Assembly: GCA_007844125.1 (NCBI GenBank)
Contig: CM017567.1
Span: forward strand, 42,987,562 to 43,051,561
Source: Sinonovacula constricta
Lineage: Eukaryota; Mollusca; Bivalvia; Cardiida; Solecurtidae
Length of the DNA: 64,000 nt
Direction: 5' to 3'
Each line of letters opens with the position of its first letter. The stretch's first letter is position 1. Under the pieces are notes generated by a model, which saw only the letters and a program-made list of their open reading frames with translations, did not search any database and had not been told where the DNA came from. The position numbers were made by a program, and so were the translations under genes. Below, piece after piece: positions 15,556 to 56,110 of the stretch.

Positions 15556-15593
<38 letters not shown>

Positions 15594-15829: not shown

Positions 15830-15881
<52 letters not shown>

Positions 15882-15885: not shown

Positions 15886-15899
15886 CCAGTCGGATGACA

Positions 15900-22600: not shown

Positions 22601-22870
22601 TCATAACTTGTCAAACAAAACGTCAGCGCTTGGACACTTATTCAAATGGATCGGTTTTCTTTTCATTGCTTGAATTCGAGAAACCCACCAGGAAGTGCGA
22701 GGTGAGAGCTCTGTAAAACCGGTTTAAGCACCCCAGTCGGTCCATATTGCCGGGTTTGCTCTTATTGTTAAATGACTCATCACGGATTTGTTCTCACATT
22801 TACTTTTGGCGTGTATGTGAATACCTTAGTCCTGTTTCTTTTCAATTTTTGTATATGTTGCAATGCTCAT
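22601..22870. repeat. Dispersed repeat, copy 1 of a family also at 26.2-26.9 kb
   Basis: Begins CATAACTTGTCAAACAAAAC, includes CCACCAGGAAGTGCGAGGT and GTAAAACCGGTTTAA and ends near GCAATGCTCATAG. It lacks a block of about 20 bp (GACCGTTCCAAGGCGCTAAC) present in the other copies. Confidence 0.7.
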
Positions 22871-25554: not shown

Positions 25555-25646
25555 CTTGACCAATAGTACAGAAGGATCCCTCTGAGGTGGAGAGCAATAA
25601 CAGTGGAACCACATACTCGGAAGCTGCTCCTTGGAACAGGGGTAAT
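25555..25646 (-). CDS. SLC23: SLC23-like transporter, exon 3 of those found
   Basis: A 92-bp exon after acceptor CATGCAG and before donor CAAG|GTGAGA. The first base completes an Arg codon (AG|A) from exon 2, and the last base starts an Asp codon completed by exon 4. It encodes LPLFQGAASEYVVPLLLLST and then SEGSFCTIGQ. R-L-P-x-x-Q-G followed by a V-P hydrophobic span is a well-conserved block of the SLC23/NCS2 family (end of one span, re-entrant region and next span). Splice phases match on both sides. Confidence 0.9.
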
Positions 25647-25859
25647 CTGCATGGAATTAGTATAGTGAATAAGTCGAATAATGCACTATATAACATGACC
25701 GTGAGCTACGCTGGCTGGTAAGGTAAACTCTTTTTTATAAAGAGGCATGGTAGAAAATTACTTGAACAAAAATCAGTAAAATAATCCATTGATTGTAAAT
25801 ATCTTCTTTTCTTCTGAACTAACTTTAAACGAAAAGTGTTCCTTCTTTTTGTAATCCTT

Positions 25860-26075
25860 ACATATAAATTGCAAGAGTTGCAATCATTACCTGATTTCAA
25901 ACATAGTCTTTTTATTCTCACCTGATGATTTCAAACAGTCATCGTAAATGTTGTCATTCTTACCTGATTTCAAACCTAGACATCGCAATGAATATATTTC
26001 TTTACCTTATTCCAAACAAAGTCAATACTATGGTTTCAATTCCTACCTGAATCCAGCCATAGTGATCGCTAGGGT
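25860..26075. repeat. Diverged patch of the exon-2-derived 41-bp satellite
   Basis: About five degenerate units (TTACCTGATTTCAAACATAGT, TTCTTACCTGATTTCAAACC, CCTACCTGAATCCAGCCATA) match the unit of the large array at 39.3-41.9 kb. The patch sits at the far end of intron 2, about 210 bp upstream of exon 3. Confidence 0.7.
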
Positions 26076-26228
26076 TGCAATTGACCCTTTTAGTTGTTTA
26101 AACATGTCGAGTCGGACTGACCTTCATATAGATAAACAGGATCATTTTTGCATTGCAATGTAGTATATATAGGGGACAATCGGCTTTTTTATAAATTAAA
26201 CTTCGCCGTTCTTATTCAAAAGAATGCC

Positions 26229-26860
26229 AGATTTTGTGTGAAATTAAGCGTTGGAGACGATTTTTCAATGACGTCACTACTGTCGTCATAGCTTTTCAAA
26301 CAAAACGTCAGCGCTTGGACACTTATTCAAATGGATCGGTTTTCTTTTCGTTGCTTGCATTCGAGAAACCCACCAGGAAGTGCAAGGTTAGTGCTCTGTA
26401 AAACCGGTTTAAACACCCCCAGTTAGTCCATATTGCCGAATGACCGTTCCAAGGCGCTAACTGTCGGGTTTGCTTTTATTGTTAAATGACTCATCACATA
26501 TTTTGTGTGAAATTAGGCGTTGGAGACGATTTTTCAATGACGTCACTACTGTCGTCATAGCTTGTCAAACAAAACGTCAGCGCTGGGACACTTATTCAAA
26601 TGGATCGGTTTTCTTTTCGTTGCTTGCATTCGAGAAACCCACCAGGAAGTGTGAGGTTAGTGCTCAGTAAAACCGGTTTAAACACACCAGTCAGTCCATA
26701 TTGCCGAATGACCGTTCCAAGGCGCTAACTGTCGGGTTTGCTCTTATTGTTAAATGACTCATCACTGATTTGTTCTCACTTTAACATTTGGCATGCATGT
26801 GAATACATTGGTCCAGTGTCGTTTCAATTTTTTTATATGTTGCAATGCTCATAGTCTATT
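26229..26860. repeat. Tandem duplication of a dispersed repeat, period 269 bp
   Basis: TTTTGTGTGAAATTA begins at about 26232 and again at 26501. Both copies run through GACGTCACTACTGTCGTCAT, CACCAGGAAGTG and GTAAAACCGGTTTAAACAC. The second copy continues into the flank shared with 22.8 kb. Confidence 0.8.
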
Positions 26861-27509
26861 TGAAACCAAATAGTAAAAAAAAACTCTTTTTTTTATTTCA
26901 CATAAAATTAATGAAGGTTCGTGTAAAAATCAGTAAATATATGTTTATGCCAAGCATCACAATTATGCAAACAAGAGATTCTATTGTAATGTTTTCGAAG
27001 TACTTTTTTATATTTGTTTTTTATTTCGGATGATTTGTGTTGTTGATTGTTTTACTAAATTTTTTCCAACATATTCTCATATATACATTTATAAAACAGT
27101 CTATAATAATTCCATCAAGTTTCTCACATTGCTATGCAAATGTAACAGGCTTTTAATTCCTCATTTATATGTTATATTATCTTATCTAAATATTAATTGT
27201 TTAAATATATCTACATATAGACCCATTGTTATTACGTTACAACACAGTATGGAACAAATTAAGCCACAATAATAGCCATTTCGGCCTATTAAATGGGATA
27301 AGGTATCCAACTTACAGTTACAATAATGTGTAAAGCTGATCAACATGAATGTTAGCTTCATTTCTGTACCTCTACGCACCGATATCTCGTGCATTGATAC
27401 CCTATATACCGTAATTGTTCAGTCACTTGTGTGTCTGATAGCGCCATCCCCAAAACCAGAATCAAAAAGCATTGCAAACCTTACTAGGACCAGTCTCTTA
27501 AAGATCGGC

Positions 27510-29640
27510 ATGCACGGATGAAAATCAAAGGCAGTCTTGGATTGCACATGGTAAACCCCGAGACAATAACTCAGTTACCTATGTGGAATATAAAGACGCG
27601 AAGCGCGCGTTTCGCAGGCATCATCGTCATGTAGGCAATGGCTTTCATACAAAATTAATTTCAGATTTAGATCGTGCTGCTTGAGTGGATATCAATTTGT
27701 TCTTGATACTGTTTAACAGACGAGGCAATTCCTTGCGAAATGGTAGTGAGATAAATTTTGATGGTAAAATGCTGCGTGGCCCGTCTGAATTTACGACAGC
27801 ATGGGGTAATTAATTCAAAACCTTATACAGTGATGTTGAACACCAATCTTATGACACATATTTTTAACACGATATCGCATATAAAGTAAATGAATTAAAA
27901 GTAAAGCCGTGTCCACGAACTTTCTGTTATAACATAAGTAAACAAGAGATTGAAAAAAAGCATTTTAGAATTAAAAAGGGGCAAATGTGCGGGCTAGACG
28001 GAGTTTACAATGAACATTTGATATATGATAAAACATACGTAATAGATATCTTAATGCAATTCTTCAGTATGATGTTCGAACGCTCATATGTTCCACTTGA
28101 CTTAAAAATGAGTTATATAGTTACTTTATATCAGGGCGGAAATATGCGTACAAACGACCCCAAAAGTTACAGAGCGATGACATTTTCTTCATCTATACTA
28201 AAGCTGTATGGGCGTGTTTACTTCACAGGCTCCAATCAGAAATAAATACAACTATCAATCGTCTACAGGGAGGGTTCCAACACGGATTGGGCTGCAATAT
28301 GACGTAATATCTGGTAATGGAATGTAAATATATCTGTAAAGAAAATAACAGTAAACTTTATGCCTGTTATTTTGATACAATGACCGCCTTTTACAGTGTG
28401 TGACATTCTAAATGTCTGGTTGGTTCCCAGTTTTGCAGGATACTAGACAAAGGGTTGTCGGTCCCCATTTGTCTACCTCCCTTACATAAATGATCTTATC
28501 ACGGAACTTCAAAAATCATCTCATGGATTGCCAATAGTCATAACAGTGTATGCACACCAACAGTAAAGAACGATATGCTTCTCTTGTCCCTGTCAGTTAA
28601 GGGTTTACAAAAAATGATAGACAATTGTTATAAGTACTCCTGCAGGTGGCGATTTCAGTACAATCCTTCGAAATGTGTAATAATTGTTTTAATGAAACAA
28701 AGAGGTTGTCAATGAAGACTAAACGTACATTTGTTCCTGGCAATCGCGCCATCAGCGAAGCCCATGAATACAAACACTTGGGGGTAATTGTACAGCCTTC
28801 CTATTCTTCTGTAAATCGCAATTATTATTATCATTCGAAATTAAGAAAAACCTTTTTCGGCATACTTAACCGTACTTCTCACGATGTTGGTTTAAGCTCC
28901 ATTCCATGCAAGCATATATACAATCACATCGTTCTACCGAAAGCCTTGAATGTTTATATAACTTGAGACAAAGTGAGACAATAAATCTTGAACGTGCGCA
29001 TCGCCTTTGTATTTAGTCAATACAAGGCATGGTATTCACAACGCGAACTGATATTGATCTAAGCATGATTGGTTGTCTTCCACTGAATGCTGAAATTGAC
29101 TTACCTAAGTTAATCCTACTAGGCCATGTCGCCTGTAATTACCTGTACCATTAAACGGCTGTTTTATATAGACTGTTTTAATATCACCAGACAATGGATA
29201 TAATGGGATATAGCCCTAGTATTTACAAGATCTTAAATACATATGCCATTAGAGATTTCGGTCAATTCATTGTCAATATGGTACATCTGATATCTGGTTA
29301 TAGGCATCGTCCAATGTCGGACATGTTAACTTTGGCAAGACCTTTGGTAAGTTAATCGCATTTACATCACGGTTTTAATGAAACTTGTGTCAAAATGTGA
29401 CTCCCCTTTGAATGATGTATGCTTGACTGATCACATATTGTTTGATTGCTATAAGTTTGATGTGTTTAAGGGTAGACTGTTACAGTGTTTCCAGACTGTG
29501 TTTGTGCTGCACAGACATTCCTTAGTCAATGCATTACTTGGTGAGCGCTGTGAAAGATACGACACCTTCCTTGGATGTACATTTAAGTATCTTCACTTTG
29601 CAATGACTTGCATACAATTTAACACACTTCAATAACACAT
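27510..29640 (+). pseudogene. LINE reverse transcriptase, heavily mutated copy
   Basis: Plus-strand frames with many stops spell an ORF2 fragment: EYKDAKRAFRRHHRHVGNG, KKGQMCGLDGVYNEHL, FERSYVPLDLKMSYIV, KSYRAMTFSSSILKLYGR, TVKNDMLLLSLSVKGLQ, SKLRKTFFGILNRTS and HIYNHIVLPKALN. The order and wording match the copy at 36.8-39.2 kb on the other strand, so both belong to one family. The catalytic box reads V-K-N-D here against V-A-D-D in the other copy, so this one is dead. It ends near 29640 with the C-terminal region LTDHILFDCYKF. Confidence 0.85.
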
Positions 29641-29649
29641 CCCAACTTT

Positions 29650-30915
29650 ACATAAACTGATTATAAACACTAAAATATTGTATTGTGACTTATCTATCTT
29701 TATGTCACATATTGTTTACATGTTTGATATATCATTGTTTTGTCTACATACATATAGACCGAAATAGACATACACTAACTGCGATTAGATTGTTGTCCTG
29801 TAAAAAATATGCACAAATTATACATTCTTTCTACGATTGTTGTTTATTTTATTTCTATATAAATATTGTATTTTTAAGTTGTTCATTAAATAGCTAATCG
29901 TCGATTCATGCTATCGTGTTTTCTCGCAATTTCATATGTCAATGTTAAAATTATGAACTAAAGAGTGAAGATTGGGGATAGTATGTTGAATTGCATTTCT
30001 AGTTTTGAGTTACTTTTCATCATTTAAACTGCTTTTTCCAAGCAGTTGCAATGTATTTAACAATATCAGTTCAGTAAATATAGACATCTTTTTTCTTTAC
30101 AACGTACAAGCAAAATAACAATTGTCTTACTTAACATAATATGATCCTCTTCTACACACGGATTAAATACGTAAATACGTAATAACACCAGGCATACAAG
30201 TCAAAACCACAGGATTGCAGCTTTAGGACCCTATCGCAGATATCTTTATGTTTATTTTCCTTCAATAGTATGAAGAGTGTACAAGACATACATAATTCGG
30301 AACACAAAACAATATAAAGAACATGTTAATGTAAATGTAGACAACCGTCCATTTGAAATGCATACTCTTACAAATATGATATTATACACTGACATTATAG
30401 TATTTTAAAAGGTTCAAATAGAGAACTTTATTTAAAGAGACACATTGCTCTGATAGCCATCACGTACGAAAAAGAGACAGACGTTTATACATATTAATAT
30501 GAATAAATATGAGAAAAAATCTTCTGACATTTAAATTTGGAAATGATATCTTAACTCCAAAAATATTTAGATCTTGTCGAAACGATAAACAAGATTTAAA
30601 CGATGGGGTTAGATAGATGAGACACCCTGTAGAAAAAAACAAACAAAGAAAACAAGCTTAACAGACAAACTAACAAAGAACATCAAAACGGAAATATCAG
30701 AAACGCATACATACACGTAATCTAAACATTGACACCCTCGTCAGGCACCTTTTTTTCTTTTATTGTCTCCCTGGCCGTTGCGAAATCGAAATTTTAGGCC
30801 AGGGACGAAAATTGAACGGACTAAAATACTCGTACAAGCATACACAGGCACACACAAACATTCACAAACGGGCTCACGTGCGAGCTCTGTTAGCTCATGT
30901 AATATAATGACTATA
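29650..30915. other. AT-rich spacer, nothing recognised
   Basis: No exon matching the transporter and no array is seen. The minus strand carries a few unremarkable short open frames. Confidence 0.4.
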
Positions 30916-30920
30916 AAGAT

Positions 30921-30968
30921 GTATATATATATATATATATAAATAAATATAAATATATATATAAATAA

Positions 30969-31050
<82 letters not shown>
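30921..31050. repeat. (AT)n microsatellite
   Basis: Two AT runs separated by AAATAAATATAAATATAT sequence. The run from about 30974 to 31048 is pure AT. It directly precedes the 22-bp array. Confidence 0.95.
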
Positions 31051-31053
<3 letters not shown>

Positions 31054-31124
31054 ATTCCAATAACAGCCATCGCTTGTGTTGGAATTGCCAATTGATTAAA
31101 ACATAATCATCGGTTTTCTGTACT

Positions 31125-31878
31125 TCGTTCATAGATAGTAAGTGCTTCGTTCATAGATAGTAAGTGCTTCGTTCATAGATAGTAAGTGCTTCGTTCATAG
31201 ATAGTAAGTATTTCGTTCATAGATAGTAAGTACTTCGTTCATAGATAGTAAGTGCTTCGTTCATAGATAGTAAGTACTTCGTTCATAGATAGTAAGTGCT
31301 TCGTTCATAGATAGTAAGTGCTTCGTTCATAGATAGTAAGTACTTCGTTCATAGATAGTAAGTGCTTCGTTCATAGATAGTAAGTACTTCGTTCATAGAT
31401 AGTAAGTGCTTCGTTCATAGATAGTAAGTACTTCGTTCATAGATAGTAAGTACTTCGTTCATAGATAGTAAGTGCTTCGTTCATAGATAGTAAGTACTTC
31501 GTTCATAGATAGTAAGTGCTTCGTTCATAGATAGTAAGTACTTCGTTCATAGATAGTAAGTGCTTCGTTCATAGATAGTAAGTGCTTCGTTCATAGATAG
31601 TAAGTACTTCGTTCATAGATAGTAAGTGCTTCGTTCATAGATAGTAAATACTTCGTTCATAGATAGTAAGTACTTCGTTCATAGATAGTAAGTGCTTCGT
31701 TCATAGATAGTAATACTTCGTTCATAGATAGTAAGTGCTTCGTTCATAGATAGTAAGTGCTTCGTTCATAGATAGTAAGTACTTCGTTCATAGATAGTAA
31801 GTACTCCGTTCATAGATAGTAAGTACTTCGTTCATAGATAGTAAGTGCTTCGTTCATAGATAGTAAGTGCTTCGGGCG
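31125..31878. repeat. Minisatellite, 22-bp unit, about 34 copies
   Basis: The unit AGATAGTAAGTGCTTCGTTC AT alternates with the TACTTCG variant in an irregular pattern. One copy near 31710 lacks one base. It is very homogeneous, suggesting recent expansion. It abuts the LINE fragment that starts at about 31.9 kb. Confidence 0.95.
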
Positions 31879-32033
31879 TAATTCTTTCTTCATTCTAAAC
31901 AAAAGTTTAGCAAGTGTTGTAATTTTACCAGATTCGATACATCGCTTGGGTTGTTATTCTTGCATGATTCCGAAAACAGAGCTATGGATTTTATTTCGTA
32001 CATAACTTCAAACCTTTTCATCGCAAGAGAAAA

Positions 32034-33411
32034 TTGGAAAGAGCCAAATGGATCCAAGCGGGTAGACCAAGAGATAAAAACAACATCAAGTACACAAATT
32101 ACAAATCTGCGAAACGAAATTTTGTAAATAAACAAAAGAATGCATTTTCAAATATTAATAACCAATTTCTGAATGATTTAAACAACGCCGCTGGCTGTGA
32201 CATGAAGTTTTTCTGGCGGCTAATCAAGCAAAGACGCAAATCACGCCACAACATGGTAACGGAGATCAACATTGACACAGGTTGTACACGTGATCCATAT
32301 GGCATTGAAAATGCATTTAAATCCCACTATGAAAGCATTCTGAAACCATGCAATAAATCAACGTTCGACAATACATTCCTACATGACTTAGACACTCAGG
32401 TGGAAAGCATTATAACAAATAACGACTTCTCTATAGACACCATCCTATCAAAAGCAGTTGATACAGCAATAATTGCAAAATGCTTATCAGAACTAAAAAT
32501 GCGGAAAGCACCGGGCTTTGATTTGGTCACACCAGAGCACATAAAATATGGGGGAAGCACTCTATATCAATACATAGCACATTTATTTACCCTGATTATT
32601 GATAGCACACACATACCCGCTAATTGCAGGAACTGTGGTCAAGTATGACCCACTCATGCATGCTTAGGCTAGAAAGATTTATCCGACTTTTCGCTAAAAA
32701 GGCTCAGCACTTACCAATCGCAACGAGAACATTAAGCCTGTTAGGTATGCACCCAATGGAATATTACATCGACCAACAAAAATTAGGCTTCTTCCAAAAA
32801 CTGTGTGGAATGCCAACTGAATGCTTAACTAAACAGTTATTCTTGTACAGACTCAATTTATACGCGGTCAGAGATTTTAATCACCAGCTACAGTTTATTT
32901 CAGACATATTCCGCATTCTTAAAAATACAAATTAATGAAATACATTACCGACTACCTGAAAAATAGCACGTTCCCGTCAAAATCAATATAGAAACAAATC
33001 ACATTACGAGCACGAAATACTTACTACACAGATGAGTGGAGACACCGAATAGCAACCGACGATACTTTCAACCACTTTCGCAACGTGCACAGGACAATTC
33101 AGCCATCCATATTATGGATCCATTCGCAATCGCGCCATGAAATTGTACATGCTATAAGTGCAGCGAATGCACTATCATACACAGACTTCTACCCAACAGT
33201 CACATGCAAGCTATGCAATAGTACCACACCACGAATCATGAAACACATATTGGCCGCATGCATCAGTCGATCAGCACAAAAGCGGCGTGACTCCTTTCTG
33301 GCCGACGTAATTATCATTTGCGGAAAACACGAATCCTCATACCTTACATCATCCGAGGACACGATGTTTGAGCATCTTTTTCAAACCGAGTTCCTAGTAG
33401 CATGCGTATAA
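32034..33411 (+). pseudogene. LINE reverse transcriptase with the catalytic core deleted
   Basis: The first frame (32034-32648) reads AKWIQAGRPRDKNNIKYTNY, CDMKFFWRLIKQRRKS and MRKAPGFDLVTPEHIKYGGS, that is, the linker before RT and its first RT blocks. At about 32640 it jumps directly to the post-RT region: RLFAKKAQHLPIATRTLSLL, QKLGFFQKLCGMPTE and, after more breaks, the C-terminal CKLCNSTTPRIMKHILAAC (zinc-knuckle-like). The segment with the ADD catalytic residues is absent, so this copy is an internally deleted derivative. It shares the G-R-P-R-D start with the copy at 39.2 kb. Confidence 0.85.
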
Positions 33412-33650
33412 GTATCCTCGAAAATAGTTGAAACACACTGTGGAAAAGTGTCTTGCAATTTCTCTTTCGGCAAGATTCTGTCTTCGCAAGTATTGTTATT
33501 ATATATGCTATACCACGTATTAATAGTACGTACGCTTGTATTTCTTATAACATGCGCTCGTGCAGGTTTACCGCATGCTCACTTCAAAATTGTGCGTATG
33601 CTTACTATAACTACGTACATGATAAATAAAAGTTATATTTTGACATCGTT

Positions 33651-34112
33651 TTGCCATCGTATGATATGTTTTTTTCAGAATACTCCACATCGAATGAGGC
33701 AGAGAGGAAGAGACTGTACAGACAACGTAAAAAGGAATCCAAAGATGGGGGAAAAAGAAAATCTAACGAGTATCAACGACGCTGGCGTCTGAAGAAATGT
33801 TCTGAAAACATCAATAATGAAATCGCAAAATTTCCAAATAGACAGAACAAATCCAGAGCTTTGAAAAAATTAAAAAAGTCACTCCCGAAAACCCCGTCGA
33901 AGCGGGCAACAACTGTTGCTGCGTATTTACAATGTTCTACATCACCAGCGGTAAAATCACACACCCTGGAGAAGGAAACAACAGATGACTGGGGAATAAC
34001 TTGGCAATGCGGCACGTCGGTGATAAAGGGGTTTTATTATGAACATTTAAAGGAAAACCATCTCAAAAACAAAATGATAAAAAAGCACATGGCACTGGTC
34101 CCTTCTATGTGA
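33651..34112 (+). CDS. Basic protein of unknown function, probably transposon-related
   Basis: An open frame of 153 codons; the likely real start is ATG 33663 or later. It is very basic at the N-terminus (EAERKRLYRQRKKESKDGGK) and continues with KSRALKKLKKSLPKTPSKRA, a Lys-rich segment with an S-L-P-x-T-P-x-K-R motif that I have seen at the N-terminus of uncharacterised invertebrate proteins from mobile elements (recollection). The C-terminal part has CGTSVIKGFYYEHLKENHLK. No catalytic motif is seen. It lies right after a LINE fragment. It could be a single exon or a relic. Confidence 0.35.
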   Translation: MPSYDMFFSEYSTSNEAERKRLYRQRKKESKDGGKRKSNEYQRRWRLKKCSENINNEIAKFPNRQNKSRALKKLKKSLPKTPSKRATTVAAYLQCSTSPAVKSHTLEKETTDDWGITWQCGTSVIKGFYYEHLKENHLKNKMIKKHMALVPSM

Positions 34113-34114
34113 GT

Positions 34115-34990
34115 TGTGTACATAGTGGAGACGAACGTTAAGTCAAAGATATCATTCACGATGCCAGAAGACGAGCATTTAAAAATATTGGAAATTGTAT
34201 CTAAAATAGAGATTAAGAGTGTATCAATTAAGACAGTTAAGCAAATAAAATATTAAAATTATTGAGTACACTTCACATAAAGATACATATTTTTGTCATT
34301 TTGCCACCAAACTTATCATAACAAGTGACCGCTTAGGTATCAGTATAAGCGGACAAACCTTTTCTTATTACTTTATTAGCAGATTGTTCAATTATTCGTT
34401 TTGTGTACTCATTATGTTATTGTCACGTGTATTTATGATGTAAATTAAAACAAAAATAGGCTGTGTTGATACGTTATTTAGACTCGGGACGTCAAAAACG
34501 TCGAAATTTTGACGTTACGCTTTATAGCTCCAACTTACGACGTCGCGTCTATGCATATTTTTATCTTCAAAATTTAAATTTCTGCCATCGTCTTCCATAT
34601 CATCATTATCATCGTCTCTGTTTAAATACACTCATTAAAACTTATTATCATCTCAATAAAATCACACTGTTATAATTATATTGCTCATTTATGTATTGTT
34701 CTTTTTAACAATAGCAACAGCGAAAAGCAGCGATCAGTATTAATTGATTTGTGTTCTCATGTATTTAATTATTTCTCTACCTGTATTGACGTTTTCCTTA
34801 CAATAATAATGTATATACATTCATAACATCATGTTTATTTACTGTGTTCATTGTAAATTTAACTTGTACATTATCTGTTTGTACCATAATGTATTTGCAT
34901 ATGTGAACTCGCTGTAAAAGTGGAAAGAGTATATATATAGTGGTGTAATTGCCTAGATTCCATTGACTCAGACACCGATATCAACTCCAT
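34115..34990. other. AT-rich spacer, nothing recognised
   Basis: No convincing coding, RNA or repeat signal. TATATATA at about 34931 lies about 60 bp upstream of the LINE frame at 34995. Confidence 0.35.
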
Positions 34991-34994
34991 TACA

Positions 34995-36050
<1,056 letters not shown>

Positions 36051-36229
36051 GTATTTCTGTATTTCCTCCTTTAACAGAAGATTGCATTACAATACATAAA
36101 TATAAACATATACAAATAGAATTACAACATGAGCTACTATAAATCAAACACATGTCGCATCTATGATGAGGAATAGGCGTACACAAACATCAACAACTAG
36201 AGAATGAATAACACGTGAGCAATGGAAAG

Positions 36230-36400
36230 GATCAAAACACAACATTCATGCGCACATAGACACACCCAGATACAAACAGACACGCATACGCGCGTCACAC
36301 ACACGCGCCTATTTGCGCGTGCACCCGCACGCACACGCATACACATGCACAAGACACGCCCACATGTGTGTCAGAAAGAAAAAAAAAGACGAAAAAAAAA
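36230..36400. repeat. CA/CG-rich low-complexity tract
   Basis: ACACACGCG-type alternating purine-pyrimidine sequence from about 36238 to 36370, followed by A-rich runs. Such sequence can adopt Z-DNA. Confidence 0.7.
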
Positions 36401-36756
36401 GCATACATGTAATTGAAAAGAACCAGTACAGTTGTTTTACGTTTGTAGCTTTCACTTACTTAGAGCTTGTAGAAACAAGAACTAAAAGTGAAGTACTCAT
36501 TAGTAAAATAAACTAAACAACTGACATTTTATGCACTTACGCTTATATGCTCAAACTTGCCGAAACGAAAAACAAGAAGAGCGTTAATTAATAAGAGTGC
36601 ATATGCAGGACAGACGATTTACTTTAAATATATCAACAATATATTAATAAGAGTGCATATGTAGAAAAGACGATTTACGCTAAATGTGTTAACAATACAT
36701 AAATGATGTGGACTAAAAGCGTAGACATCGTTATCCAAATCCAAGATGCGTCTAAC

Positions 36757-39240
36757 TTATTTGTAAGATAACCACATGAGATGGACATGGCGAAATAGAA
36801 CATTTATCAAAAAATGATAAGGTATGCTTAAACAAGCAGACAGTGCTGGACACTGGCCGCCAAGAAGTGCATTCACTTTTGTTCTCTCATCTAAAGAGAG
36901 AAAGGTTGACAACACGTGATCTCCGAATTCGCTTTGCAGACAGACCGCCAACTGACGTCGGTGTGTATACAAATGTGGACAGACAGTGAGAATATGATCA
37001 GTAAGATAAGTGTCGTTTAGCTCAACGCCACATCTTCGACATGACCCACCCTGCCATGAAAAATAAGTAACCAGTTTGCAAACTGTACTGCAATAAGTAA
37101 GTTGGCAAGAATTTCTATAATTATACTGCCAAATCTCGCTTATCTCATACAGTGTATGAATAGATCGGACACGAGCGAATTCCACCGCACAATATCTATC
37201 TGTCCAGTCAATGATCGCCTTTGAAATGATCTTGAGATAAACGATGCGTTTCCATGTAAACTTTCCCGGAAAATTTCCGTCGCCTAGGAAATCGTTTAAA
37301 TAGTTTGTTAAATTATAATACTCAAGCAGACCCCACATATCCTTAAAGAAACCAGATATCCTAGAGGGGTTTAACTTGCTATAAGTTAACCGAAACAGAA
37401 ACATGTGCCTTACTGCTTTGTTACCCAGCAGGCGACACAGTTGACCAAGAAAAATCATTTTCCGTTGATCAATAAGACATTTTATAGGTAAAATATTAAG
37501 CATACTAAGTGCTATATCAGTACGTGTCCTCCAGTTGAATCCTTGCATAGATTTGACGCACCTACGATGCGCCCTCTCAAGGGAGATTATTTCATGAGAC
37601 GATAAGGTGTATAGACATTCAGTACCGTAAAGTGCTTTTGGAAGGACTATGTGATCATAGATCCTTTTACATGTGATTGGATTTAATTGACTGAGAGATT
37701 CATTGTCCAGAGTGCCGAAGAACGTTTTCCGTAATTTTTCGGAAATAAATTTAATCCGTTGGTTTAACTTATAGTCACAGTAGCACATAACACCCAGGTG
37801 TAAGTAGTTATCGACTTCGGATATTGTGTCATCACCCAGATGCCATGATCTGGCCGAACGGAGGTAAGATATTTTATTTTCATTGAAAACCATAACGGCA
37901 CATTTAGCAGGATTATATTGAAACCTCCACTTGCACGCATACCGGTGACAAGTGTCTAGAAGAGTTTGGAGGCCCTGCATTGACAGAGATAAGAGAAGCA
38001 TATCGTCGGCTACGGTTGGTGCACATAGATTGTAACCGTTTATACATAAACCGACCTGTGTATTAACAAGTTGTTGTATTAACTCATTAATGAAGCACAA
38101 GTAGAGAAATGGTGACCAACGCGAGTCTTGACGGGTGGACTGAAGTATCGGGAACCAGTCAGATTTACGTCCCTGTACAATACACAACTGGTCATTCCAG
38201 TGTGCATATTCACAATCGCATGCCAGAGACGACCTGTTATACCCATAGAATATAGCTTGTAGAAGAGGCCATTATGTCATACCCTATCAAAAGATTGACG
38301 GGCATCCAAATAGCATGCATATAACTTGCTCTTGTTTTCTTTACAATAATGTATACACTCTTGTAACAGAAAACTGGTCATATTACAGCCCATCCCCTCC
38401 TGAAATCCGCCCTGTAGTGGATGAATAGGGATATTTATATGTTCTTTTAACCGTAATAAAAGCATGCTCTCGTACAGTTTGAGAAGACATGAAGAAAGAG
38501 TGATAGCTCGATAACTATTCGGATCATCTTTACGTTTATTGCCTCCTTTGAATAAGGTAATAATGCAACCTTGTTTTAACTGACTAGGTACATAAGACTG
38601 CGACAACATATTATTGAATAATAAAAGTATATATTCGTAGAGTACATGCCCTCCATTAATTATATGCTCATTATAAATGGAGTCTAAACCGCACATTTTA
38701 CCTTTATTTAGGCTTTTAATACACCCCATCAATTCCTGGAGTGAAAATGGAGGCTGATCAGGGACCATATTGCTTTCACATTTCAACTGATCAACTGTAT
38801 TATCAACTACTTGACGAAAGCTTTGATCATACAACTCATGATTTGTATCAGTATACAAATCAGCGAAATAGGAACCCCACTCCTGAGTAATATCGTTAGC
38901 GTCGCGTACTACACGACCATTAAAGTTAAGCTCACATGTACATGATGATGAATTGCCCTTTCTCTTAGCATTAAACAGCTTCCAGAACAACCCGCAGTCA
39001 ATAGGTACAGCGGCCTCAATATCACGATACGTTTGACTCATATAATTACGAACCGCGCTACGGTGAGAGCGTCTAAACTTTGCTTTGGCCTCCTTATATA
39101 ATATGAAAGTTTCGTGAGTTCTATCACGTGGTCTACCGGCTGCTAGCCACTCACCGCGCTTCTGACGCATCCACGCATGAAGGCCCTTTAAGGTCTGGCC
39201 CCAATATGGTCTGAGGTATGAGCGATAGAATGAGCGTGGA
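36757..39240 (-). pseudogene. LINE reverse transcriptase, nearly intact copy (one nonsense codon, one frameshift)
   Basis: Minus strand. The frame enters at about 39240 (SFYRSYLRPYWGQTLKGLHA), runs through GRPRDRTHETFILYKEAKAK, RT blocks GKMCGLDSIYNEHI, IITLFKGGNKRKDDPNSYRA and LYACYLDARQSFDRV, then a TGA at 38279-38277. That codon is probably a mutated Trp, because HNGLFYKLYSMGITGRLW follows in frame. Near 38180 the frame shifts into the long block 38187-36757 with the catalytic TVADDMLLLS, YNPAKCAVMVF, HLGVM, LRKTFFGTLDNES and the C-terminal CRRCGVELNDTYLTDHIL zinc-knuckle region. The 5' part (endonuclease) is missing, cut where the 41-bp array begins. It lies in intron 2 of the transporter on the same strand. 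Confidence 0.92.
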
Positions 39241-39261
39241 AGACATGTGTCCGATGCATAC

Positions 39262-41868
39262 GGTTGTAATTCTTACCGGATTTCAATCATAGTCATCGCG
39301 CAGGTTGTAATTCTTGCCTGATTTCAAACATAGTCATCGCGCGGGTTGTAATTCTTGCCTGATTTCAAACATAGTCATCACGAGGGTTGTAATTCTTGCC
39401 TGATTTCAAACATAGTCATCACGAGGGTTGTAATTCTTGCCTGATTTCAAACATAGTCATCACGCGGGTTGTAATTCTTGCCTGATTTCAAACATAGTCA
39501 TCGCGCGGGTTGTAATTCTTGCCTGATTTCAAACATAGCCATCGCAAGGGTTGTAATTCTTGCCTGATTTCAAACATAGTCATCGCAAGGGTTGTAATTC
39601 TTGCCTGATTTCAAACATAGTCATCGCGCGGGTTGTAATTCTTACCTGATTTCAAATATAGTCATCGCGCGGGTTGTAATTCTTGCCTGATTTCAAACAT
39701 AGTCATCGTAAGGGTTGTAATTCTTGCCTGATTTCAAACATAGTCATCGCGCGGGTTGTAATTCTTGTCTGATTTCAAACATAGCCATCGCAAGGGTTGT
39801 AATTCTTGCCTGATTTCAAACATAGTCATCGCGCGGGTTGTAATTCTTGTCTGATTTCAAACATAGTCATCGCGCGGGTTGTAATTCTTGTCTGATTTCA
39901 AACGTAGCCATCGCAAGGGTTGTAATTCTTGTCTGATTTCAAACATAGCCATCGCAAGGGTTGTAATTCTTGCCTGATTTCAAACATAGTCATCGCGCGG
40001 GTTGTAATTCTTGTCTGATTTCAAACATAGTCATCGCGCGGGTTGTAATTCTTGCCTGATTTCAAACGTAGCCATCGCAAGGGTTGTAATTCTTGTCTGA
40101 TTTCAAACATAGCCATCGCAAGGGTTGTAATTCTTGCCTGATTTCAAACATAGTCATCGCAAGGGTTGTAATTCTTACCTGATTTCAATCATAGTCATCG
40201 CAAGGCTTATAATTCTTGACTGATTTCAAATATAGTCATCGCAAGGGTTGTAATTCTTACCTGATTTCAAACATAGTCTTCGCAAGGCTTATAATTCTTG
40301 ACTGATTTCAAACATAGTCATCGCGCGGGTTGTAATTCTTGCCTGATTTCAAACATAGTCATCGCGCGGGTTGTAATTCTTGCCTGAATTCAAACATAGT
40401 CATCACGAGGGTTGTAATTCTTGCCTGATTTCAAACATAGTCATCGCGCGGGTTGTAATTCTTGCCTGATTTCAAACATAGTCATCACGAGGGTTGTAAT
40501 TCTTGCCTGATTTCAAACATAGTCATCGCAAGGGTTGTAATTCTTGCCTGATTTCAAACATAGTCATCGCGCGGGTTGTAATTCTTGCCTGATTTCAAAC
40601 ATAGTCATCACGAGGGTTGTAATTCTTGCCTGATTTCAAACATAGTCATCGCAAGGGTTGTAATTCTTGCCTGATTTCAAACATAGTCATCACGAGGGTT
40701 GTAATTCTTGCCTGATTTCAAACATAGCCATCGCAAGGGTTGTAATTCTTGCCTGATTTCAAACATAGTCATCGCGCGGGTTGTAATTCTTGCCTGATTT
40801 CAAACATAGTCATCGCGCGGGTTGTAATTCTTGCCTGAGTTCAAACATAGCCATCGCAAGGGTTGTAATTCTTGCCTGATTTCAAACGTAGCCATCGCAA
40901 GGGTTGTAATTCTTGTCTGATTTCAAACATAGCCATCGCAAGGGTTGTAATTCTTGCCTGATTTCAAACATAGTCATCGCAAGGGTTGTAATTCTTACCT
41001 GATTTCAAACATAGTCATCGCAAGGCTTATAATTCTTGACTGATTTCAAACATAGTCATCGCAAGGGTTGTAATTCTTACCTGATTTCAAACATAGTCAT
41101 CGCAAGGCTTATAATTCTTGACTGATTTCAAACATAGTCATCGCAAGGGTTGTAATTCTTTTCTGAGTTTAAACATTATCGATGCAAGGATTATAACTGT
41201 TACCTGATTTTAAAAATATATCTTATTAGAGTTGCAATTCTTACCTGATTCTCGAGGGTTGCAATTATTTTCTGATTCCAAACGAAGTCGGCGTGATGGC
41301 TGAAACTTTTATCTTCTTCAAAACACAGTCATCGCAAGGGTTGTAATTCTTTCTTTATATCAAACACAGTCATCACTGGAGTTGTAATTCTGACCTTATA
41401 TCAAACATAGTCATCGCAAGGGTTACAATTCTTACCTTATATCAAACATAGTCATCGCAAGGGTTACAATTCTTACCTTATATCAAACATAGTCATCGCA
41501 AGGATTGCAATTCTTACCTTATATCAAACATAGTCATCGCAAGGATTGCAATTCTTACCTTATATCAAACTTAGTCATCGCAAGAGTTACAATTCTTACC
41601 TTATATCAAACATAGTCATCGCAAGGGTTTTAATTCTTGCCTTATATCAAACATAGTCATCGTAATGGTTGCAATTCTTGCCTTATATCAAACATAGTCA
41701 TCGCAAGGGTTACAATTCTTGCCTTATATCAAACATAGTCATCGCAAGGGTTACAATTCTTACCTTATATCAAACATATTCATCGCAAGAGTTGCAATTC
41801 TTACCTTATTCCAAACATAGTCATCGCTTGAGTTGTTTTTCTTACCTGATTCCAAACATATTCATCGC
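39262..41868. repeat. 41-bp satellite derived from the exon 2/intron 2 boundary, about 63 copies
   Basis: On the minus strand each unit is 23 bases like the 3' end of transporter exon 2 (GCGATGAATATGTTTGGAAT CAG) plus 18 bases like the start of its intron (GTAAGAAAAACAACTCAA). The first unit is the real boundary itself (41868-41828), and the next starts exactly 41 bp on. Units near the exon keep GTAAGAA at the junction; most distal ones have GCAAGAA (plus strand TTCTTGCC), some GACAAGA. The array ends at the LINE at about 39250. Confidence 0.93.
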
Positions 41869-42003
41869 AATCGTTGTTATTCCATTCATAAAGAGAGTAG
41901 AGCTAAGAAGTCGTGCTTTCATGATGTCGTTTTGTGACGCACAAACAGCCTCAGCCACCAACAGAGAAACAATCAGTTGGCTTGACAATGCCAGCAGGGC
42001 TTG
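41846..42003 (-). CDS. SLC23: SLC23-like transporter, exon 2
   Basis: A 158-bp exon after acceptor ATATTGCAG and before donor CAG|GTAAGA. It encodes QALLALSSQLIVSLLVAEAV, then CASQNDIMKARLLSSTLFMN and GITTIAMNMFGI, plus two bases of an Arg codon. The span, the following V-x-A-E/D segment, the S-S-T-x-F-x-x-G-I-x-T block and the final F-G-I-R are hallmarks of SLC23 proteins. The highly conserved Gln-His pair of the first membrane span would fall exactly on the exon 1/exon 2 junction. Here it reads Gln-Gln. The 3' end of this exon is the seed of the 41-bp satellite in intron 2. Confidence 0.92.
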
Positions 42004-42209: not shown

Positions 42210-42479
42210 CTGTAAGCCACAGATTAGTGTTATATGAAATGGTGGTGTGTCATTAACGCCATAAATCAAATGCCTTGTTGTATAGTCTACGGTCCTATCC
42301 AGTTGTGCTGATCCTTCTGTATTCCCGTCATCAGATGATGCTAGTTGTTTTGTTTCAGCGTCACAGTTCCCTGTTATATTTTCGTTGATATAAGTATTAC
42401 ATTCATCCGTTGACATATTATTTAGCTCTAACCCCTTGCTCTGTGAAACACTGGCGTCCGCACACTCCTGATTCGACAT
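42210..42479 (-). CDS. SLC23: SLC23-like transporter, exon 1 with start codon
   Basis: ATG 42479-42477 has an in-frame TGA four codons upstream, so it is the natural start. Ninety codons run to CTTACAG|GTGCGT, phase 0. The N-terminus is acidic and polar (MSNQECADASVSQSKGLELN), as expected for a cytosolic tail. It ends with HLIYGVNDTPPFHITLICGL, matching the family pattern L-x-Y-x-(hydrophobic)-x-D-x-P-P at the start of the first membrane span. The intron to exon 2 is 206 bp. Six exons together give about 304 residues, roughly half a typical SLC23 protein of about 600. Confidence 0.88.
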
Positions 42480-46090: not shown

Positions 46091-46299
46091 TATCAAAGTC
46101 ATATCAGTACAAACAATCAGCGGCTTTAATATCATTATCACCACCTACGTCATATGACAGATTCGAAAAGTATTCAAAGAAATCATTTACATTGACTTTG
46201 ATTTTCATTTACTAAAAGGTTTGCAATAATCTTAGGGCTTTGTATGTTTCATTCTTTCTATTTTCTTCTTTTTGTGTTTAAGACTTTTTTCTGTCATGA

Positions 46300-49200
46300 C
46301 TGAAGCAGTGGGGGACTATCATAAATGGAGCAGTGAGGGCCTGACATGACTGGAGCAGTGAGAGAGGGCTATGATTGGAGCAGTGAGGGCCTGACATGAC
46401 TGGAGCAGTGAGAGAGGGCTATGATTGGAGCAGTGAGAGAGGGCTATGATTGGAGCAGTGAGAGAGGGCTATGATTGGAGCAGTGAGGGCCTGACATGAC
46501 TGGAGCAGTGAGAGAGGGCTATGATTGGAGCAGTGAGAGAGGGCTATGATTGGAGCAGTGAGGGCCTGACATGACTGGAACAGTGAGAGAGGGCTATGAT
46601 TGGAGCAGTGAGAGAGGGCTATGATTGGAGCAGTGAGGGCCTGACATGACTGGAGCAGTGGGGGACTATCATAAATGGAGCAGTGAGGGCCTGACATGAC
46701 TGAAGCAGTGAGAGAGGGCTATGATTGGAGCAGTGAGGGCCTGACATGACTGGAGCAGTGAGAGAGGGCTATGATTGGAGCAGTGAGGGCCTGACTTGAC
46801 TGGAGCAGTGAGGGCCTGACATGACTGGAGCAGTGAGAGAGGGCTATGATTGGAGCAGTGAGGGCCTGACTTGACTGGAGCAGTGAGAGAGGGCTATGAT
46901 TGGAGCAGTGAGGGCCTGACATGACTGGAGCAGTGAGAGAGGGCTATGATTGGAGCAGTGAGAGAGGGCTATGATTGGAGCAGTGAGAGAGGGCTATGAT
47001 TGGAGCAGTGAGGGCCTGACATGACTGGAGCAGTGAGAGAGGGCTATGATTGGAGCAGTGAGGGCCTGACATGACTGGAGCAGTGAGAGAGGGCTATGAT
47101 TGGAGCAGTGAGGGCCTGACATGATTGGAGCAGTGAGGGCCTGACATGACTGGAGCAGTGAGGGCCTGAAATGTCTGGAGCAGTGAGAGAGGGCTATGAT
47201 TGGAGCAGTGAGGGCCTGACATGACTGGAGCAGTGAGGGCCTGACATGATTGGAGCAGTGAGAGAGGGCTATGATTGGAGCAGTGAGGGCCTGACATGAC
47301 TGGAGCAGTGAGAGAGGGCTATGATTGGAGCAGTGAGAGAGGGCTATGATTGGAGCAGTGAGAGAGGGCTATGATTGGAGCAGTGAGGGCCTGACATGAC
47401 TGGAGCAGTGAGAGAGGGCTATGATTGGAGCAGTGAGGGCCTGACATGACTGGAGCAGTGAGGGCCTGACATGACTGGAGCAGTGAGAGAGGGCTATGAT
47501 TGGAGCAGTGAGGGCCTGACATGACTGGAGCAGTGGGGGACTATCATAAATAGAGCAGTGAGGGCCTGACATGACTGAAGCAGTGAGAGAGGGCTATGAT
47601 TGGAGCAGTGAGGGCCTGACATGACTGGAGCAGTGAGGGCCTGACATGACTGGAGCAGTGAGAGAGGGCTATGATTGGAGCAGTGAGGGCCTGACATGAC
47701 TGGAGCAGTGGGGGACTATCATAAATGGAGCAGTGAGGGCCTGACATGACTGAAGCAGTGAGAGAGGGCTATGATTGGAGCAGTGAGGGCCTGACATGAC
47801 TGGAGCAGTGGGGGACTATCATAAATGGAGCAGTGAGGGCCTGACATGACTGGAGCAGTGGGGGACTATCATAAATGGAGCAGTGAGGGCCTGACATGAC
47901 TGAAGCAGTGAGAGAGGGCTATGATTGGAGCAGTGAGGGCCTGACATGACTGGAGCAGTGAGAGAGGGCTATGATTGGAGCAGTGAGAGAGGGCTATGAT
48001 TGGAGCAGTGAGGGCCTGACATGACTGGAGCAGTGAGAGAGGGCTATGATTGGAGCAGTGAGAGAGGGCTATGATTGGAGCAGTGAGAGAGGGCTATGAT
48101 TGGAGCAGTGAGGGCCTGACATGACTGAAGCAGTGAGAGAGGGCTATGATTGGAGCAGTGAGGGCCTGACATGACTGGAGCAGTGAGAGAGGGCTATGAT
48201 TGGAGCAGTGAGGGCCTGACATGACTGGAGCAGTGAGAGAGGGCTATGATTGGAGCAGTGAGGGCCTGACATGACTGGAGCAGTGAGGGCCTGACATGAC
48301 TGGAGCAGTGAGAGAGGGCTATGATTGGAGCTGTGAGGGCCTGACATGACTGGAGCAGTGAGGGCCTGACATGACTGGAGCAGTGAGAGAGGGCTATGAT
48401 TGGAGCAGTGAGGGCCTGACATGACTGGAGCAGTGAGAGAGGGCTATGATTGGAGCTGTGAGGGCCTGACATGACTGGAGCAGTGAGGGCCTGACATGAC
48501 TGGAGCAGTGAGGGCCTGACATGACTGGAGCAGTGAGGGCCTGACATGACTGGAGCAGTGGGGGACTATCATAAATGGAGCAGTGAGGGCCTGACATGAC
48601 TGGAGCAGTGAGGGCCTGACATGACTGGAGCAGTGAGAGAGGGCTATGATTGGAGCTGTGAGGGGCCTGACATGACTGAAGCAGTGAGAGAGGATATGAT
48701 TGGAGCAGTGAGGGCCTGACATGACTGGAGCAGTGAGAGAGGGCTATGATTGGAGCAGTGAGGGCCTGACATGACTGGAGCAGTGAGAGAGGGCTATGAT
48801 TGGAGCAGTGAGGGCCTGACATGACTGGAGCAGTGAGAGAGGGCTATGATTGGAGCAGTGAGGGCCTGACATGACTGGAGCAGTGAGAGAGGGCTATGAT
48901 TGGAGCAGTGAGGGCCTGACATGACTGAAGCAGTGAGAGAGGGCTATGATTGGAGCAGTGAGGGCCTGACATGACTGGAGCGGTGAGAGAGGGCTATGAT
49001 TGGAGCAGTGAGGGCCTGACATGACTGGAGCAGTGAGAGAGGGCTATGATTGGAGCAGTGAGGGCCTGACATGACTGGAGCAGTGAGGGCCTGACATGAC
49101 TGGAGCAGTGAGAGAGGGCTATGATTGGAGCTGTGAGGGCCTGACATGACTGAAGCAGTGAGAGAGGGCTATGATTGGAGCAGTGAGGGCCTGACATGAC

Positions 49201-49515
49201 TGGGGCAGTGAGAGAGGGCTATGATTGGAGCAGTGAGGGCCTGACATGACTGGAGCAGTGAGAGAGGGCTATGATTGGAGCAGTGAGGGCATGCCATGAC
49301 TGAAGCAGTGAGAGAGGGCTATGATTGGAGCAGTGAGGGCCTGACATGACTGGAGCAGTGAGAGAGGGCTATGATTGGAGCAGTGAGGGCATGCCATGAC
49401 TGAAGCAGTGAGAGAGGGCTATGATTGGAGCTGTGAGGGCATGCCATGACTGAAGCAGTGAGAGAGGGCTATGATTGGAGCTGTGAGGGCATGCCATGAC
49501 TGAAGCAGTGAGGAA
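46300..49515. repeat. 25-bp megasatellite, domain 1
   Basis: Two 25-bp variants alternate irregularly: AGCAGTGAGGGCCTGACATG ACTGG and AGCAGTGAGAGAGGGCTATG ATTGG, plus a rarer GGGGGACTATCATAAAT form. Since three units make 75 bp, short open frames recur on the minus strand every few units; they have no coding meaning. It adjoins domain 2 without a gap. Confidence 0.96.
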
Positions 49516-52500
49516 ATGTCATGACTGGAATGCCATGACTGAAGGAGTGAGTGAATGGCATGAGTGGAGCAGTAAGGGACTGTCATGACTGCAGCAATGA
49601 CGGACTGTCATGACTGGAGCTGTGAGGGACTGTCAATACTGGGGCAGTCAGGGATTTCATGGCTGAAGCAGTGAGGGACTGTCATGACTGGAGCAGTGAG
49701 GGACTGTCGTAACTGGACCAGTCAGGGAATGTCATGACTGGAGCGGTAAAGGACTGTCATGACTGGAGCAGTGAGAAACTGTCATGACTGGAGCAGTGAG
49801 AAACTGTCATAAGTGGAGCAGTGAGAAACTGTCATGACTGGAGCGGTAAAGGACTGTCATGACTGGAGCGGTAAAGGACTGTCATGACTGGAGCAGTGAG
49901 AAACTGTCATGACTGGAGCAGTGAGAAACTGTCATAAGTGGAGCAGTGAGAAACTGTCATGACTGGAGCAGTGAGAAACTGTCAGAAGTGGAGCAGTGAG
50001 ACATTGTCATGACTGGAGCAGTGAGGGGCTGTCATGACTGCAGCAATGACGGACTGTCATGACTGGAGCTGTGAGGGACTGCCAATACTGGGGCAGTCAG
50101 GGATTTCATGGCTGAAGCAGTGAGGGACTGTCATGACTGGAGCAGTGAGGGACTGTCGTAACTGGACCAGTCAGGGAATGTCATGACTGGAGCGGTAAAG
50201 GACTGTCATGACTGGAGCAGTGAGAAACTGTCATGACTGGAGCAGTGAGAAACTGTCATAAGTGGAGCAGTGAGAAACTGTCATGACTGGAGCGGTAAAG
50301 GACTGTCATGACTGGAGCGGTAAAGGACTGTCATGACTGGAGCAGTGAGAAACTGTCATGACTGGAGCAGTGAGAAACTGTCATAAGTGGAGCAGTGAGA
50401 AACTGTCATGACTGGAGCAGTGAGAAACTGTCAGAAGTGGAGCAGTGAGACATTGTCATGACTGGAGCAGTGAGGGACTGTCATGGCTGAAGCAGTGAGG
50501 GACTGTCGTAACTGGACCAGTCAGGGAATGTCATGACTGGAGCGGTAAAGGACTGTCATGACTGGAGCAGTGAGAAACTGTCATGACTGGAGCAGTGAGA
50601 AACTCTCATAAGTGGAGCATTGAGGGACTGTCATGACTGAAGCAGTGAGGGACTGTCAGGTCTTGAGCAGTGAGGGATTGTCATGACTGGAGCAGTGAGA
50701 CATTGTCATGACTGGAGCAGTGATCGACTGTCATGACTGAAGCAGTAAGGGACTGTCATGACTTGAGCAGTGAGGTATTGTCATGACTGGAGCAGTGAGG
50801 GGCTGTCATGACTGGATGACTGGAGCATTAAGGGACTGTCATGACTGGAGCAGTGAGGGGCTGTCATGACTGGATGACTGGAGCATTAAGGGACTGTCAT
50901 GAGTGGAGCGGTGAGGGGCTGTCATGACTGAATGACTGGAGCATTAAGGGACTGTCATGAGTGGAGCAGTAAGGGACTGTCATGACTGGAGCAGTAAGAG
51001 AATGTCATGATTAAAGCAGTGAGGGATTGTCATGACTGGAGCATTAAGGGACTGTCATGAGTGGAGCATTAAGGGACTGTCATGAGTGAAGCAGTAAGGG
51101 GCTGTCATGACTGGATGACTGGAGCATTAAGGGACTGTCATGACTGGAGCAGTGAAGGAATGTCATGACTGGAGCAGTGAGGGGCTGTCATGACTGGATG
51201 ACTGGAGCATTAAGGGACTGTCATGAGTGGAGCAGTAAGGGACTGTCATGACTGGAGCAGTGAGGGGCTGTCATGACTGGATGACTGGAGCATTAAGGGA
51301 CTGTCATGAGTGGAGCGGTGAGGGGCTGTCATGACTGAATGACTGGAGCATTAAGGGACTGTCATGAGTGGAGCAGTAAGAGAATGTCATGATTAAAGCA
51401 GTGAGGGATTGTCATGACTGGAGCATTAAGGGACTGTCATGAGTGGAGCATTAAGGGACTGTCATGAGTGGAGCAGTAAGGGGCTGTCATGACTGGATGA
51501 CTGGAGCATTAAGGGACTGTCATGAGTGGAGCAGTAAGAGAATGTCATGATTAAAGCAGTGAGGGATTGTCATGACTGGAGCATTAAGGGACTGTCATGA
51601 GTGGAGCATTAAGGGACTGTCATGAGTGGAGCAGTGAGGGGCTGTCATGACTGGATGACTGGAGCATTAAGGGACTGTCATGAGTGGAGCAGTAAGAGAA
51701 TGTCATGATTAAAGCAGTGAGGGATTGTCATGACTGGAGCATTAAGGGACTGTCATGAGTGGAGCATTAAGGGACTGTCATGAGTGGAGCAGTGAGGGGC
51801 TGTCATGACTGGATGACTGGAGCATTAAGGGACTGTCATGAGTGGAGCAGTAAGAGAATGTCATGATTAAAGCAGTGAGGGATTGTCATGACTGGAGCAT
51901 TAAGGGACTGTCATGAGTGGAGCATTAAGGGACTGTCATGAGTGAAGCAGTAAGGGGCTGTCATGACTGGAGCAGTGAGGGGCTGTCATGACTGGAGCAG
52001 AATGGGGCTGTCATGACTGGAGCAGTATGGGGCTGTCATGACTGGAGCAGTATGGGGCTGTCATGACTGGAGCAGTGAGGGGCTGTCATGAGTGAAGCAT
52101 TAAGGGACTGTCATGAGTGGATCATTAAGGGACTGTCATGAGTGAAGCAGTAAGGGGCTGTCATGACTGGAGCAGTGAGGGGCTGTCATGACTGGAGCAG
52201 AATGGGGCTGTCATGACTGGAGCAGTATGGGGCTGTCATGACTGGAGCAGTATGGGGCTGTCATGACTGGAGCAGTGAGGGGCTGTCATGAGTGAAGCAG
52301 TAAGGGGCTGTCATGACTGGAGCATTAAGGGACTGTCATGACTGGAGCATTAAGGGACTGTCATGACTGGAGCATTAAGGGACTGTCATGAGTGGAGCAT
52401 TAAGGGACTGTCATGAGTGGAGCATTAAGGGACTGTCATGAGTGAAGCATTAAGGGGCTGTCATGACTGGAGCATTAAGGGACTGTCATGAGTGAAGCAG

Positions 52501-55500: not shown

Positions 55501-56110
55501 TATGGGGCTGTCATGATTGGAGCAGTATGAGGCTGTCATGACTGGAACAGTATGGGGCTGTCATGACTGGACCAGTGAGGGGCTGTCATGACTGGAGTAG
55601 TATGGGGCTATCATGACTGGAGCAGTATGGGGCTGTCATGACTGGAGCAGTATGGGGCTGTCATGATTGGAGCAGTATGGGGCTGTCATGACTGGAACAG
55701 TATGGGGCTGTCATGACTGGAGCAGTATGGGGCTGTCATGACTGGAGCAGTATGGGGCTGTCATGACTTGAGCAGTGAGGTATTGTCATGACTGGAGCAG
55801 TGAGGGGCTGTCATGACTGGAGCAGTATGGGGCTGTCATGACTGGAGCAGTATGGGGCTGTCATGACTGGAGCAGTATGGGGCTGTCATGACTTGAGCAG
55901 TGAGGGATTGTCATGACTGGAGCAGTGAGGGGCTGTCATGACTGGAGCAGTATGGGGCTGTCATGACTGGAGCAGTATGGGGCTGTCATGACTGGAGCAG
56001 TGAGGGATTGTCATGACTGGAACAGTGAGGGATTGTCATGACTGGAGTAGTGTGGTACTGCCATGGCTGAAGCAGTGAAGGGCAGTTATAACTGAGACAG
56101 TATGGGATTT
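49516..56110. repeat. 25-bp megasatellite, domain 2, with higher-order repeats
   Basis: Units of the AGCAGT(G/A)AGGGACTGTCATG ACTGG type, with GAGCATTAAGGGA and GTATGGGGCTG variants. A segment of about 440 bp is duplicated (about 49.56-50.0 and 50.03-50.47 kb). Between about 51.37 and 51.95 kb a 158-bp higher-order unit (six 25-bp units plus an 8-bp insertion, GGATGACT) repeats four times, marked by TAAGAGAATGTCATGATTAA at 51378, 51535, 51693 and 51851. Confidence 0.96.

Follow-up and report, generated by a model that had tools for sequence, protein, structure and literature searches.

The second intron of an SLC23 transporter gene in Sinonovacula constricta contains a tandem array of 63 units of 41 bp that repeats the junction between exon 2 and intron 2, including the predicted 5' splice site. 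The array most probably represents a minisatellite that was seeded by chance at this junction and has been tolerated by the gene at the cost of what would be some decoy splicing, a reading to which we assign a probability of roughly 80%. The unit matches the exon end in register, the exon and its intron are older than the array, and the donor-like sites of the array are distributed in blocks. All positions refer to the 64,000-nucleotide stretch analysed here, called the window.

Repeat unit and host gene

The host gene lies on the minus strand. Exon 1 (coding part, 42210..42479) is followed by the 158-nt exon 2 (41846..42003), which resembles SLC23 and Xan_ur_permease sequences and terminates in phase 2 (GGA ATC AG|GT). 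The predicted true 5' splice site of exon 2 (CAG|GTAAGA; 41844..41845), as read from the sequence, opens a 16,199-bp intron 2 (25647..41845) that was delimited by the exon limits and the unit search and carries array units at both ends. Exon 3 (25555..25646) resumes the reading frame with AG|A TTA CCC CTG (RLPLFQG) and is followed by exons 4 (21403-21315), 5 (18199-18018) and 6 (17728-17608). The limits of all six exons were checked, together with the frame of exon 2. Joined together, exons 1–6 form 304 stop-free codons with AG and GT at the internal limits, and the adjoining 20 kb to the left of the window contain more exons of the SLC23 family.

The exon 1–6 translation matched 14 proteins, all of them bivalve SLC23 members (best E value of 1.3e-64), with identities over the aligned parts of 64% in Ruditapes, 55% in Mercenaria, 55 and 71% in Dreissena, 43-54% in Mya, 38-50% in Tegillarca and 40% in Argopecten. 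No near-identical protein was observed among these 14 bivalve matches. Exons 1 and 2 matched PF00860 (Xan_ur_permease) with an E value of 5.1e-05 and 22.6 bits, which is below the curated cut-off of 27, and the Pfam score increased once exon 1 was joined to exon 2. Exon 2 also matched solved SLC23A1 chains in the PDB, weakly (E values of 0.059 and 0.075). The permease domain and the family exons in frame identify the predicted host gene as an SLC23 nucleobase-ascorbate transporter gene. Elsewhere in the window, a ten-kilobase array of 25/50-bp units is located upstream of the gene (46291-56124), and a series of long reading frames, perhaps a mobile element, extends over about 4600-12900 on the minus strand and includes a weak AAA_19 match below the cut-off (10377-10760, minus strand).

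The 41-bp array occupies 39258..41845 on the minus strand within intron 2, as defined by TRF, wrap-around alignment and the donor count, and runs in register from inside exon 2 (41868) down to 39258. Wrap-around alignment of 41960-39256 resolved the exon unit at 41868, followed by 63 intronic units with a few degenerate ones among them, in agreement with the roughly 60-fold amplification of the junction that an earlier note on this DNA had proposed. TRF called 39262-41882 with periods of 82 and 123, and 39262-41218 plus 41321-41870 with a period of 41. The exon unit shares 34 of its 41 bases with the first intron unit. When the array was masked, the best matches of the first intron unit in the window had 33, 33 and 31 identical bases, followed by 28; in our own reading of the sequence, the first three correspond to relic units near exon 3.

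The exon copy of the repeat unit comprises the last 38 nt of exon 2 (41846..41883, minus strand). Within it, 23 nt are strongly alike, and the 15 nt on their 5' side match the distal consensus in register at 11 positions, a level reached by 102 of 122,620 other window 15-mers against any of four unit variants. Because these 15 further exon nucleotides match in register, an equivalent description of the unit is the final 38 nt of exon 2 followed by GTA. The earlier note had described the unit as the end of exon 2, counted as 23 bases, plus the start of intron 2, and had suggested aligning the units to the exon boundary, with a likeness limited to a few chance bases as one outcome that would refute it. 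The alignment (34/41, plus 11/15 in register) upholds the description, extends the likeness beyond the 23 exon bases and is not a matter of a few chance bases. The tandem array repeats the predicted 5' splice site of its exon and starts within or directly at the end of that exon.

The proximal block of the array is GT-rich and of the ATAAG type, the middle is degenerate (about 41335-41145), and the distal block is homogenised, with 46 clean units that mostly carry GC donors. Of these blocks, the distal one resembles the exon slightly more closely than the proximal one does (rho +0.33, p 0.011), which argues against simple growth of the array outward from the exon.

Precedence of the exon over the array

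A search of the genome with the exon-2 protein (E value up to 10) returned 23 places, with 25 candidates scored, which correspond to the target and 22 paralogous exons. In 21 of the 22, GT directly follows the conserved G-x-R codon (read past the match end in L016), and L012 is the sole paralogous exon that continues without an intron at the junction codon. Neither the 41-bp unit nor a tandem array at the junction was found in any of the 22 paralogous exons, and the nearest array behind any paralogous exon-2 donor starts at +122 (L023). In the closest paralog (L010), which is 77% alike, the exon end reads GGAGTAACAACGGTGGCCATGAACCTTTTCGGTGCAAG, and no array is present. The pairs L020/L021 and L027/L028 are each 99.9% identical, so the number of independent paralogs is below 22. 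The SLC23 loci L020 (C4) and L021 (C15) are on different contigs and share this 99.9% identity over 1.45 kb, which reflects either very recent copying or a problem of the assembly.

The protein alignment of the exon-2 block covered 13 of the 14 homologs. The exon-2 peptide is represented by GITTVAMNLFGIR in Mercenaria (P0006) and GVTTVAMNLFGIR in Ruditapes (P0001), and these two proteins read GVTT/GITTVAMNLFGIR at the block. Seven other homologs have a recognisable, more different block (e.g. GVTTVCQNLFGIR and GITTFCMNIFGI), and P0012 starts inside it. The block is absent or different in P0002, P0003 and P0004, perhaps owing to gene prediction.

Given GT at the same codon in 21 of 22 paralogs and an array in none, the intron and the exon predate the array, and the exon is its seed. 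The repeated exon end is accordingly part of a predicted coding exon that is older than the array, and the direction given in the earlier note, from exon to array, stands on the array-free paralogs and on the like peptides of Mercenaria and Ruditapes. The opposite direction, in which an unrelated satellite overwrote the exon end by conversion and thereby made the exon a copy of the array, has to be considered, as likeness alone does not give a direction. It is extremely improbable: the unit was not found outside intron 2 in a genome search whose counts are lower bounds, and like peptides occur both in relatives and in the closest paralog, the latter array-free.

The unit written as 38 exon nucleotides plus GTA would also suit the birth of intron 2 itself by tandem duplication of an AGGT-containing stretch of exon. 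Such gains have been published; the report on potato RdRp describes intron gain by tandem genomic duplication (PMC4974935), and as in that case, splice sites in the SLC23 gene were supplied by tandem duplication of exon sequence. Unlike in the potato case, the SLC23 intron predates the duplication, with GT at the same codon in 21 of 22 paralogous exons. Intron gain by tandem duplication was rejected on this ground, and we give it next to no credence.

Genomic distribution of the unit and relics near exon 3

A DNA search of the whole 1.22-Gb assembly (177 contigs, with the window on contig C13) with two consensus units as the query, in which counts are lower bounds, returned at least 37 unit matches, all in intron 2: 35 in the array and two on the same strand at 25860-25986. 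As none of the at least 37 matches is outside intron 2 of the SLC23 gene, a dispersed satellite family was rejected as the source of the unit. Local search and alignment, together with the genome search, define six degraded relic units at 25839..26090 (minus strand), about 190-440 nt upstream of exon 3; five have readable donors, and the sixth is too degraded. The relics are located at the far end of the same intron, about 13 kb from the main array.

A LINE-like reverse transcriptase stretch with RVT_1 in two ORFs (36757..39272, minus strand) adjoins the distal array end and stands between the array and the relics. The same interval contains a second, weak RVT_1 match in an ORF at 35790 (E value of 0.0057, below the cut-off) and another array with a 22-bp unit. 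We infer that insertions split a once-longer array. In the same region, a like stretch of ~80 nt on the minus strand (CACTTCCTGGTGGGTTTCTCGAA...) was noticed by eye beside the relics (about 26300-26400) and in intron 3 (22600-22720), and it is perhaps a dispersed element.

Tandem arrays are known to collapse in assemblies, and the length or content of the present array could in part be an assembly product. This is quite unlikely, as the variant units are arranged in ordered blocks and relics are found about 13 kb off the main array.

Donor-like sites of the array

The 5' splice site region is repeated in most intronic units. A pattern count that includes the predicted true donor identified 59 donor sites, consisting of 15 GT, 32 GC and 12 sites that are neither. 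The earlier observation that the units repeat a donor-like sequence on the sense strand is supported. The GT donors comprise seven CAGGTAAGA (true donor included), seven AAGGTAAGA and one CCGGTAAGA; two weaker GT sites, at 41394 and 41203, lie beyond the 59-site pattern count.

The earlier note had further described GTAAGA as kept close to the exon and had proposed that donor strength is lost with distance. This loss is not confirmed. Exact copies of the true donor are observed further along, at 41244, 41080, 40998, 40260, 40178 and 39645. Donor scores, which were derived from general splice-site frequencies and are secondary here to the GT, GC and neither classes, do not fall with distance (59 clean intronic units, rho -0.15, p 0.26). 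GT units account for 8 of 12 in the first 500 nt, 0 of 1 at 500-700 nt, and then 2 of 15, 2 of 14 and 2 of 17, and GT is kept in all five readable donors of the far-end relics. The donor pattern is a step between two blocks and not a slope, as expected if one variant block was re-amplified, and donor decay with distance was rejected. In the distal block, a base other than the majority one stands in column +1 in 11 of the 46 units and in column +2 in 6 of them. Because other columns depart as often and the copies are not independent, these numbers do not speak to faster mutation of the donor bases.

Intact units contain AG|GTAAG, the core of both U1 snRNP binding sites and recursive-splicing ratchet points as these functions are generally known. 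The donor repeats might accordingly guard the 16-kb intron from premature polyadenylation or act as ratchet points. Such a role is very improbable, given that 32 of the 59 counted donors are GC and 12 are neither, and that a clear pyrimidine tract before AG was not seen in the alignment as read by eye.

The reading frame of exon 2 across the junction is ATC AGG TAA. As the in-frame TAA comes directly after ATC AGG, use of any decoy donor would yield an immediate stop, which confirms in the sequence what the earlier note had pointed out.

Tandem arrays in the introns of SLC23 genes

Seven SLC23 genes (243.5 kb, 62 tblastn exon hits, one entered by hand) were surveyed for TRF arrays with a period of at least 10 and at least 3 copies. 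The 41 arrays found cover 11% of the 243.5 kb. Arrays are so common that a junction-seeded one is to be expected now and then, given very many junctions, although this is an estimate and not a genome-wide computation.

Of the 23 intronic arrays, 10 begin no more than 250 nt behind an exon, and 2 reach their end at most 250 nt before one. A uniform distribution predicts 3.4 on the donor side at 250 nt, compared with 9 of 22 when the target array is excluded (P 0.00045) and 7 of 18 when low-complexity and short-period arrays are excluded as well (P 0.0025). At 100 nt, the corresponding counts are 4 of 22 (P 0.037) and 4 of 18 (P 0.011), and only a weak excess remains at 500 nt (P 0.059 and 0.084). 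At 10 nt by TRF limits, one of the 22 other arrays qualifies, that of L015 (P 0.14). This array (L047-L049, stitched 13019-16077) has a 28-bp unit in ~110 copies, begins at about +8 behind the donor and is preceded by the exon LEGSLMVAG...WGVSFM. A two-copy tandem duplication of 59 bp from about +3 of intron 3 in L010 (L032, about 6017-6135 of the locus) fails the three-copy criterion and is outside the 10-nt count. Around the 22 exon-2 copies, which form an overlapping set, three lineages have an array within 400 nt on the donor side, and no lineage has one that close on the acceptor side; beyond 400 nt, the acceptor side has five arrays and the donor side three.

For the other nine arrays starting no more than 250 nt downstream of an exon, an origin from the exon junction was rejected. 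Eight of them gave shuffle fractions from 0.08 to 0.94. The ninth (L011 28071) beat all 300 shuffles, with a match at +75 to +139 of the intron; as this match is directly before the array, it looks like outlying array copies and not like exon sequence. The donor-side lean was noticed post hoc in one gene family with exon limits set partly by tblastn or by eye, and it is offered as a hypothesis. It would be explained if 5' splice sites were preferred birthplaces of minisatellites in this genome, and perhaps in animals at large, with the SLC23 array as the extreme case in which the seed keeps its exon and with the human CBS and ABCA7 arrays as outcomes of the same process. We regard this generalisation as tentative and rather doubtful.

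Discussion

The array would have been born when the exon 2/intron 2 junction of the SLC23 gene was duplicated in tandem. Because the first copy still provides the complete coding end together with a strong donor, all further copies would lie inside the intron and be free to multiply and drift. Units would once have been present near the far end of intron 2 as well, and later insertions, the LINE-like element among them, would have parted the two sets. One block, with mostly GC donors, was then probably re-amplified and homogenised. Normal splicing is expected to use the first, exon-proximal donor, with the decoys behind it. If a decoy 41 x n nt downstream were occasionally chosen, the resulting mRNA would carry an immediate stop and be open to decay. 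Any burden of the array on expression would therefore be mild and would depend on array length.

Three published systems bear on this course of events, one of them the potato case above. We group the two human ones with the present array as splice-junction minisatellites, by criteria of our own. The 31-bp VNTR of human CBS is named c.1444_1467+7(16_21) and is located at the exon 13/intron 13 boundary in 16-21 copies (PMC2630376). By our arithmetic from that name, its unit consists of 24 nt of the exon end and 7 nt of the intron (PMC2630376), so that, as in the bivalve gene, the tandem unit spans the exon end and the intron start at a donor boundary. CBS activity is reported to be lower with more VNTR copies (PMC5188458, citing Lievers 2001). 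The bivalve array differs from the 16-21 CBS units in having 63 units of 41 bp with far-end relics, in another gene and another phylum.

In human ABCA7, a 25-bp VNTR of intron 18 with about 12 to 427 units starts with the exon 18 donor GT; splicing also takes place at a cryptic donor one unit further downstream and results in a frameshift (PMC5954066). According to a review, longer ABCA7 arrays are associated with lower expression and more exon 19 skipping (PMC6660495). The ABCA7 unit begins at GT and leaves the exon outside, in contrast to the bivalve unit, which includes the last 23-38 exon nucleotides. By analogy with the human cases, some use of the first decoys and decay of the resulting mRNAs would be expected in the bivalve gene, and some effect of the array on gene output is plausible.

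A stronger version of such an effect, in which the array is a selected regulator whose length and donor mix set the amount of SLC23 mRNA through transcript decay, draws on the in-frame TAA directly after the true donor, on 14 further high-scoring GT donors in the array (scored with general splice-site frequencies) and on the copy-number effects published for human CBS (PMC5188458) and ABCA7 (PMC6660495). We consider it unlikely, as the array is present in none of the 22 paralogous exons, big arrays are common in SLC23 introns away from junctions, and donor strength is not graded along the array. A chance origin at the junction, followed by tolerance, remains our preferred account.

The bivalve array therefore belongs to a kind of repeat known from human CBS and ABCA7 and is a new example with an unusually clear history. 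Outside vertebrates, it documents the passage from a splice junction to an array together with the seed exon, two blocks, far relics and array-free paralogs as controls. In human CBS and ABCA7, similarly built arrays have been linked to reduced gene output. If the donor-side lean holds genome-wide, splice donors would be a source of repeat birth.
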